Of a stretch of 61,703 bases of DNA, positions 10,670 through 60,426 are shown in pieces; position 1 is the first letter of the stretch, and each line of letters opens with the position of its first letter. Made by a program: the position numbers and the translations under genes. The notes beneath the pieces are model-generated. The model did not search any database. It saw nothing but the letters and a program-made list of their open reading frames with translations, and was not told the origin of the DNA. Where the stretch lies: the NCBI GenBank assembly GCA_904420525.1, contig CAJFVT010000149.1, forward strand, positions 1 through 61,703, given 5' to 3'. Source of the DNA: an uncultured Clostridia bacterium (GTDB lineage Bacteria; Bacillota; Clostridia; UBA1381).

Positions 10670-10691
10670 AATTTCTCCTGACCCCCTTCGA

Positions 10692-10749
10692 TAATGGTTT
10701 TAGGCTCCCGCGAAACACTGCAGCGTTTCGTAATTGCCTGTAATGATTT
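10692..10749. repeat. Palindromic mini-element, copy A, with 9-bp flanking direct repeats
   Basis: The core CGAAACACTGCAGCGTTTCG (10711-10730) is a near-perfect palindrome. Outer AGGC (10702-10705) and GCCT (10736-10739) extend the symmetry. The 40-bp unit 10701-10740 is bounded by TAATGGTTT and TAATGATTT, which match at 8 of 9 positions. It lies between glgP and the GH13 gene. It shares the GTTTCG-AATT-CCT arm with the copies at 26743-26780 and 60374-60417. Confidence 0.6.
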
Positions 10750-26723: not shown

Positions 26724-26733
26724 GCTCAAATAC

Positions 26734-26789
26734 TATATGCAGTAGATAATTGTGAAACGATCGTTTCGCAATCACCTAATTATATGCAG
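26734..26789. repeat. Palindromic mini-element, copy B, with exact 9-bp direct repeats
   Basis: A 38-bp unit (26743-26780) is bounded on both sides by TATATGCAG (26734-26742 and 26781-26789). Its core GTGAAACGATCGTTTCGC is an almost perfect palindrome, and ATTG/CAAT plus TAG/CTA extend the arms to 18 bp with two mismatches and one G-U pair. It sits 10 bp past telA and 4 bp before the patatin ribosome site. The direct repeats look like a target-site duplication. Confidence 0.65.
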
Positions 26790-26808
26790 CCGAAGGAGGC
26801 TGATGATC

Positions 26809-27855
26809 ATGAGATATGCACTTGCTCTTGCAGGCGGCGGGACGCGAGGAGCATTCCAGGCCGGAGTCTGGCGCGCTCTGCGCGAAATGGATATGGAGAT
26901 AGCCGCTATAACCGGCACATCCATAGGCGCGGTCAACGGAGCCATGTTCGCTCTGAACAAGGATACGGAGGAAATGTGGCAAAGCATATCGGTAGACGAC
27001 ATAGTAGACGTGCCGAAAAAGAACTCTAATCTCCTCTCTCTTGAATCACTGCCGGGCATCGTAAAAAAAGGAGTGGGCGAGGGAGGTCTTGACGCCTCGC
27101 CTTTTAAACAGCTCCTAAGCTCGCTTATAGACGAGGATGAGCTGCGCCGTTCACCGGTCGAATACGGTCTATGCACATTTTCAATAACTGACAAAAAATC
27201 CGTTGAGGTTTTCACAGAAGACATTCCCAAAGGGCAGCTTGTGGATTTCATCCTGGCAAGCGCATGCTTCCCAGTTTTTAAGCCTGTGGTAATAGACGGA
27301 AAGGAATACACAGACGGAAGCACAAGGAACAATCTCCCTATAAATATGCTCACAGACCGAGGTTATGACACTATAATAGCCGTATCTGTAAAAGGCGTAG
27401 GTGCCATACGCGATTATAACGGCTGCGGCGCAAACGTGATCAGGATAGACGCGCAGACGCCCGAAGTCGGACTTATGGATTTTGACCGTGAAGCTATAGG
27501 ACGCAGCATAAAAAGCGGTTATTTCGAATGTATGAGGACCTTCGGGAAATACTCCGGAAGCATTTACTCTTTCTATAACGCATCATACAGGGAAGCTTTG
27601 TCAGTTTTCGGCGAAGAGCTGATACGCGGTGTTGAAGCTGCCGCAAAAATGACGGGCATGGATCCTTATGTTCCATATTCGTTTAAGGATCTATCGCTCA
27701 CCGTTCTTGCTGAATACAGAAAAAAACCAAGACTGCGCAGACTTACCGACTATATAGCCCGCGGCAAAAACAATTTTATAAATGAAAAGCTAGATCTGCT
27801 CGGTGAGCTTTATACAGCCGCAAATTCGATCGTATATTTGTCCAAATATCTTTAA
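26809..27855 (+). CDS. Patatin-like phospholipase family protein, 348 aa
   Basis: Patatin-like proteins are lipid acyl hydrolases with a Ser-Asp dyad. Seen are the oxyanion-hole stretch ALAGGGTRGAFQAGV, the nucleophile in GTSIGAVNGA (GxSxG), and the catalytic Asp in YTDGSTRNN. There is no signal peptide, so it is cytoplasmic or peripheral. I chose the ATG at 26809: AAGGAGG is 9 nt upstream. An earlier in-frame GTG lies inside the palindromic mini-element and has no ribosome site. An unusual basic C-terminal tail (about 300-348) holds no known motif. The substrate is unknown; a membrane phospholipid is likely. A terminator follows. Confidence 0.88.
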   Translation: MRYALALAGGGTRGAFQAGVWRALREMDMEIAAITGTSIGAVNGAMFALNKDTEEMWQSISVDDIVDVPKKNSNLLSLESLPGIVKKGVGEGGLDASPFKQLLSSLIDEDELRRSPVEYGLCTFSITDKKSVEVFTEDIPKGQLVDFILASACFPVFKPVVIDGKEYTDGSTRNNLPINMLTDRGYDTIIAVSVKGVGAIRDYNGCGANVIRIDAQTPEVGLMDFDREAIGRSIKSGYFECMRTFGKYSGSIYSFYNASYREALSVFGEELIRGVEAAAKMTGMDPYVPYSFKDLSLTVLAEYRKKPRLRRLTDYIARGKNNFINEKLDLLGELYTAANSIVYLSKYL

Positions 27856-60344: not shown

Positions 60345-60364
60345 ACTCTTTACCTCTCTTATAT

Positions 60365-60426
60365 AAAATATAGGGAAGTAATTGCAAAACGCTGCCGCGT
60401 TTCGCAATTACCTAATAAAAATATAG
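60365..60426. repeat. Palindromic mini-element, copy C, in the metF leader
   Basis: The 44-bp unit 60374-60417 is bounded by exact 9-bp direct repeats AAAATATAG (60365-60373 and 60418-60426). Its core GTAATTGCAAAACGC-TGCC-GCGTTTCGCAATTAC is a 15-bp inverted repeat with one mismatch. It lies 20 bp before the metF start codon and next to the rnpB terminator. The arm TTTCGCAATTACCTAAT matches copy B at 16 of 17 positions. Confidence 0.65.

Follow-up and report, generated by a model that had tools for sequence, protein, structure and literature searches.

Does the small palindrome between telA and the patatin gene mark the insertion of a mobile element, and if so, what placed it there? Within the window, i.e. 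the whole stretch of 61,703 nucleotides analyzed here, and in the genome to which it belongs, dozens of tiny inserted palindromes, many just 36 bases in length, lie at a nearly constant distance from a GGAG motif, usually the ribosome-binding site of a gene, which points to a mobile element that selects its insertion sites with unusual precision. At a probability of roughly 0.8, we read them as inserted members of a non-autonomous family with terminal inverted repeats (MITE) that targets GGAG, mobilized by a putative trans-acting transposase and yielding its shortest copies, the solos, by interior deletion.

The window palindrome and its family

The near-perfect palindrome is flanked by exact copies of TATATGCAG at positions 26734-26742 and 26781-26789, which confirms the starting point of the sequence-only reading. 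This reading had described a 38-bp palindrome between 9-bp repeats; the palindrome stands, but the better boundaries are those of a 36-bp element (26743-26778) between 11-bp repeats (Table 1). It had also assigned 9-bp direct repeats to two sister copies. As judged by eye, these are exact for the copy at 60374, where the 9-mer AAAATATAG lies inside a 10-bp repeat with one mismatch, but not for the copy at 10701-10740, whose flanks TAATGGTTT and TAATGATTT agree at only 8 of 9 positions.

Table 1. Coordinates of the three window copies, their flanking repeats and the adjacent motifs.
Feature	Position	Strand	Basis
Copy A, 36-bp solo element TAGA...CCTA, between telA and the patatin gene (names by Pfam)	26743..26778		
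Copy A, left target repeat ACTATATGCAG	26732..26742	+	
Copy A, right target repeat ATTATATGCAG, 10/11 identical to left	26779..26789	+	
Copy A, 5-nt spacer from target repeat to motif	26790..26794	+	
GGAGG, Shine-Dalgarno sequence of the patatin gene (Pfam), ATG at 26809	26795..26799	+	
Copy B, 40-bp solo, upstream of an alpha-amylase-family gene (Pfam; minus strand, start 10669)	10701..10740		partly by eye
Copy B, left repeat TAATGGTTT	10692..10700	+	by eye
Copy B, right repeat TAATGATTT, 8/9 identical to left	10741..10749	+	by eye
GGGGG variant motif, 5 nt from the copy B repeat; scored as a miss in the motif-window count	10682..10686	-	
Copy C, 43-bp solo with a right-end-type palindrome (6-nt centre), upstream of an MTHFR gene (Pfam; minus strand, ATG 60344)	60374..60416		
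Copy C, left repeat TAAAATATAG	60364..60373	+	by eye
Copy C, right repeat AAAAATATAG, 9/10 identical to left	60417..60426	+	by eye
GAGAGG variant motif, 5 nt from the copy C repeat; scored as a miss in the motif-window count	60353..60358	-	

With up to 3 mismatches allowed, the 18-base arm CGTTTCGCAATTACCTAA was matched three times in the window, by both arms of copy A and one arm of the copy at 60374 (expected 0.09). The genome of the window (G000; an 88% complete draft of 2,495,277 bp in 232 contigs) contains 92 matches to the arm, compared with a single match for the reversed control pattern, and the three window copies are therefore members of a dispersed family. The earlier count of three copies thus fell well short, as dozens were found together with longer forms.

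All forms have common ends and fall into size classes: solos of 36-43 bp, intermediate forms of 79-85 bp and long forms of about 216 bp, or 278 bp in the relative G007. The copies analyzed in G000 comprise 34 solos, 3 intermediate and 3 long forms, the last being under-counted at contig breaks. Several contigs end inside long copies. Long forms carry a palindrome at either end (the left one with a 2-nt centre, the right one with a 6-nt centre) and hairpins between them, and two that were folded are far more stable than shuffled sequences, with z scores of -11.2 for one of 278 bp as DNA and -10.0 for one of 216 bp as RNA. As in a MITE, forms from 36 to 278 bp bear the same 17-bp ends in inverted orientation, and this end, TAGGTRATTGCGAAACG, would be the unit of recognition. 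Two 85-bp copies have almost identical deletion junctions but occupy different sites and have different flanks, so this deletion derivative was probably still mobile after it had formed. On contig C44, two copies spanning 1 kb resembled a full element but proved to be solos around other sequence.

Target-site duplications and empty sites

When the two flanks of the same copy were compared, their identity rose in a single register, over 11 positions, with the element taken as TAGG...CCTA; these edges were set after the identity profile had been inspected. At a length of 11, at least 80% flank identity was observed in 11 of 40 G000 copies, while 0.13 were expected from flanks of different copies. 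Likewise, the longest exact flanking repeat reached at least 8 bp in 18 of the 40 (expected 0.82). The possibility that the flanking repeats arose by chance, raised along with the initial observation, is thereby answered, as mismatched flanks yield such repeats far less often.

In the full set of 59 two-sided copies (40 from G000, 18 from G007 and one from G014), strong repeats were found in 21, compared with an expected 0.02, as a target-duplicating MITE predicts; 27 copies showed no clear repeat (score below 5). For each copy the best repeat length between 6 and 15 was taken and the mismatched-pair control was given the same freedom, while copy C51:24 was left out on account of its short flank. 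The strong repeats measure 9 (one copy), 11 (12 copies), 12 (six copies) or 13 bp (two copies), with a mode of 11. The proposed length of 9 bp is accordingly not retained: clear repeats are mostly 11-12 bp long, and the 9-mers represent the exactly matching portion of these longer duplications.

Orthologous sites were then compared among relatives. At the window site, three of the four relatives aligned (G006, G014 and G003) lack the element. The sequence-only reading would have been contradicted by orthologous loci that are always occupied, and this is not what the relatives show. The long copy C49 is absent from all three relatives aligned (G006, G014, G007), and the solo C27 from all four (G006, G007, G014, G003). 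Together with its dispersal, the empty orthologous sites at three loci are as expected of a MITE, and, combined with flank repeats beyond chance, they bear out the earlier view that a very small element was inserted and duplicated its target site.

Comparison of the 40 G000 copies with 19 copies from relatives revealed flanking sequence in common at just one locus, the window pair. In G007, a palindrome (L113:737-774) precedes the same patatin gene as copy A and has other flanking repeats. It is either an independent, recurrent insertion or an old shared insertion that has since diverged.

A search for the 17-base end with at most one mismatch in 95 genomes of the order gave 60 matches in G000, 17 in G007, three in G014, two in G006 and one each in G003 and G025, and none in the other 89. 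Across 391 genomes of the class, a sample outside which G007 falls, G000 alone was positive. G003 and G006 also contain long forms that have diverged. The exact palindrome matched one contig in a wider contig collection, apparently G007:C29, an exact 18-mer search of viral contigs gave no match, and neither did phage and plasmid collections queried with the 216-bp form. The MITE family occurs chiefly in one Clostridia genus, two species of which have the highest copy numbers. Diverged palindromes with similar ends were also seen singly, in G013, a poorer genome of the same genus (L086:1501-1544), and in G025 of another genus (L087).

Insertion at a nearly fixed distance from GGAG

To describe the position of the copies relative to nearby motifs, the start positions of GGAGG, AGGAG and GGAGA were counted outward from the element edges in 148 flanks of 89 copies, with overlapping motifs counted separately. 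No motif starts at 1-9 nt, and the counts peak at 16 and 17 nt with 26 each, while the complementary motif occurs zero to one time per position in the same flanks. The motif lies 10-22 nt from an edge in 60 of the 89 copies; 30 of the 89 are seen from one side alone and do not enter the counts of two-sided copies below. In 47 of the 59 two-sided copies, one edge has the motif at a distance of 14-20 nt, and in no copy do both edges have it. Control positions in the surrounding sequence have it at this distance in 3.8% of cases (1890 of 49,281), and AT-rich ones in 3.2% (326 of 10,129). Apart from GGAGR, AT-richness is the only target feature observed.

The majority of the landing motifs are Shine-Dalgarno sequences: in a gene-start test, a Shine-Dalgarno sequence was located 10-19 nt away from 26 of the 40 G000 copies and from 54 of 633 random non-ORF positions. 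Since GGAG is the Shine-Dalgarno core, copies gather in gene leaders immediately 5' of ribosome-binding sites, with both gene and site left intact. A count of ORF overlaps (22 of 40) was set aside because any 80-codon open frame in six frames had counted. As judged by eye, four of the 12 two-sided copies that miss the 14-20 nt range have the motif at 10-13 nt (C156, C81, C88, L115), six have a G-rich variant (the two other window copies, L111, L101, C72 and C44:2704) and two have nothing similar (C193:10006, C63:57392).

The distance to the motif is coupled to the length of the duplication. In 18 of the 21 strong-repeat copies, the GGAG distance minus the repeat length equals 6 for lengths from 9 to 13, so that exactly 5 nt separate the end of the repeat from GGAG irrespective of how long the repeat is. 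When lengths were shuffled among copies with the distances kept, the mean was 7.6, and 18 was never reached in 20,000 shuffles. Where several GGAGs were on offer, as in C103:8902 and C65:13832, the one nearest to 17 nt was chosen. The 18 copies span solos, the intermediate C64 and the long forms C49, L103:4883 and L099. Three copies depart from this spacing: C88, L106 and, at the window site in G007, L113. Locus L152, which belongs to the diverged subfamily of G003, shows by eye a 12-bp repeat, then 5 nt, then CTCC.

Random insertion into AT-rich DNA, with survival only just upstream of ribosome-binding sites, could account for the AT-rich target repeats, and leaders may well tolerate insertions. 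However, nearby AT-rich positions rarely have the motif at this distance, and a sharp distance that tracks repeat length one for one is not predicted by survival alone. The coupling links the duplication and the motif to a single cutting event, which makes an explanation by survival of harmless insertions alone very unlikely.

Five copies (C64:11213, C153:3993, C116:16220, C44:2704, C188:16207) lie beside strong hairpins, and their G-rich motif is the stem on the other strand. Four of the five hairpins have the T-rich side typical of terminators. The gene-start test covered four of the five copies and found no gene start at the motif in any of them. The location of the motif in a hairpin stem suggests that the landing cue is probably a DNA motif and not translation, although five cases are few.

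The fixed spacing to the Shine-Dalgarno sequence would also suit a regulatory hairpin or operator that is conserved in leader regions and kept at that distance by selection. Such an origin is highly improbable given the flanking duplications, the empty orthologous sites, the single locus in common with relatives and the copies that adjoin hairpins instead of ribosome-binding sites. In addition, cmscan of 5 loci with long copies gave no Rfam match at E<=1, and in 43 solos, pairing between the two arms of a copy (577 of 774 cells) is no better than between arms taken from different copies (572, sd 6.7). This lack of the covariation expected from a structured leader RNA gives no sign that a hairpin is being maintained.

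The MITE reading remains the preferred one. A trans-acting transposase, addressed by the purine-rich GGAG motif, would duplicate an AT-rich target of about 11-12 bp, the motif-proximal cut usually falling exactly 5 nt 5' of GGAG and the other 9-13 bp further away.

Decay of the copies and origin of the solos

Once inserted, the copies decay. Of the 34 end bases, a mean of 1.44 are changed in 9 long and intermediate copies, 2.5 in 15 strong-repeat solos and 5.55 in 20 weak-repeat solos; ends and target repeats thus decay together.

In long copies (about 216 bp, or 278 bp in the relative), which have a palindrome at each end, the palindrome arms are near-identical repeats about 180 bp apart, so that a simple deletion would give a solo whose two ends differ in type, one left and one right. 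Most likely, the solos of 36-40 bp are two outward-facing ends left after deletion of the interior between such arms; the 36-bp form is thus probably a two-ended remnant of longer forms that have collapsed. A mixture of left and right end markers was found in 11 of 15 strong-repeat solos compared with 11 of 28 others (P 0.055), an excess that favours collapse without proving it.

Alternatively, the 36-bp solo could itself be the mobile unit, inserted by a transposase or integrase, with the long forms being composites of solos. In the complete set of 43 solos, left and right end markers combine at random. This pattern is not expected if present-day long forms simply collapse, and it leaves room for mobile solos; solos also outnumber the long forms, under-counted as these are, and follow the same landing rule. 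Against this, most strong-repeat solos are left/right mixed, as deletion predicts, solos of the 38-bp class have more changed ends (mean 4.07 versus 1.44 of 34), and back-to-back ends should give no slack for a classical paired-end complex. We consider a mobile solo unlikely. It is equally doubtful that both parts of a stronger claim hold, namely that the Shine-Dalgarno core GGAG is read as a DNA address, with the cut exactly 5 bp 5' of it and insertions placed before ribosome-binding sites genome-wide with genes left unbroken, and that the two-ended 36-bp palindrome is itself mobile, which would place it among the smallest units of DNA transposition.

Search for a transposase

The sequence-only reading had proposed a full-size partner acting in trans. 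No such partner turned up among four Pfam families in five to six draft genomes: transposase genes with matching ends were found neither for PF01609 (6 genomes) nor for PF01797, PF00872 and PF06782 (5 genomes), G000 being an 88% complete draft. PF01609 matches are present in four of the six genomes, with one gene in G000 (L180), four in G004, two in G014 and one weak match in G007. The end of the G000 gene (DDE_Tnp_1), CAGGGTTTTTGAATGAG, is unrelated to the palindrome family, and we take this transposase to be ISAs1-like. None of the eight loci L179-L186 contains a stretch within 4 mismatches of the 17-bp end. The single PF00872 gene (Transposase_mut, L189, in G000) has an equally unrelated end, TCCCAAGTTTTGTGTAAA, and the one PF06782 gene, in G006, has no matching ends. 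For PF01797 (Y1_Tnp), no gene was found in G000, G007 and G006, and partial genes were found in G003 and G014. Inspection by eye of 13 one-armed or contig-end copies showed no transposase.

Relation to known elements

Like prokaryotic MITEs such as QMITE1 of Coxiella burnetii, whose copies range from 39 to 400 bp, the family is presumably non-coding and mobilized in trans and has terminal inverted repeats, target duplications and graded deletion derivatives down to about 40 bp (PMC10969869). Unlike them, it has palindromic termini, lands at GGAG-anchored sites and includes 36-bp stubs that retain two ends and are clearly duplicated at the flanks, and the part of PMC10969869 available to us mentions no such target rule. 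Literature searched for such a landing rule and for 11-bp duplications, mostly outside subscription journals, likewise gave no description of the rule in titles and abstracts.

The repeats of 9-13 bp with a mode of 11 agree with a stagger of about one helix turn (10-13 bp), and the portion of PMC2266710 consulted gives direct repeats of 10-13 bp for the IS4 subgroup and of 10-12 bp for IS231. It also describes strong target-arm specificity in some IS4-subgroup members and 5'-NA ends in most subgroups, to which TAGG conforms. However, TAGG differs from the subgroup signatures given there (CAT, CA, -AATR, CT, CW and YT), and no DDE/YREK transposase with these ends was found among the PF01609 matches of the six genomes searched. 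We therefore class the copies as a lineage-specific MITE family whose behaviour would fit a transposase with an IS4-like stagger, and not as an IS4 member.

Short palindromes in many copies between genes are also characteristic of REPs and REPINs (PMC3116915 and PMC3733652, both available in part), which are moved by a REP-associated Y1 (HUH) transposase. A REP-type origin is the least probable of the explanations considered here, as the target is duplicated by the element, G000, G007 and G006 contain no PF01797 gene, and the copies lie before gene starts, whereas in the two genomes plotted in the accessible part of PMC3733652 the REPs lie near the 3' ends of genes. The GTAG/CGTC tag at one palindrome end described in the same source is also lacking, the ends here being TAGG/CCTA. 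Pneumococcal BOX, RUP and SPRITE are likewise small structured repeats, and BOX and RUP duplicate their target. In contrast to the present copies just before ribosome-binding sites, they are over-represented between convergent genes, according to the section of PMC3049150 consulted.

Selfish DNA must avoid killing its host, and the landing cue here seems to be a short motif that precedes very many genes of such a bacterium. A GGAG cue would offer the element plenty of transcribed sites where insertion does no harm. Should this be confirmed, the enzyme to be sought would be a transposase that recognizes a short target code and places DNA in front of ribosome-binding sites with near-base resolution. 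The 36-bp stubs could then serve as datable scars in work on the evolution of gene leaders.

Two minor observations were made within the repeats. Some G000 solos (C193:10006, C87:31017, C208:2990) have the same unusual base in both arms, despite the overall lack of covariation between arms, perhaps reflecting sublineages or arm-to-arm correction. In addition, a module of about 60 bp with three small hairpins occurs inside several unrelated-looking repeats, in G003 (L167, L175), G007 (L103:4883-5160) and G084, G004, G083 and G070 (L154-L157, L163-L165, L169, L170, L173, L176, L177). The G003 module occupies a hairpin loop flanked by direct repeats of the GGGTACAC type and is doubled in tandem at one locus; it may be a separate, nested mini-element.
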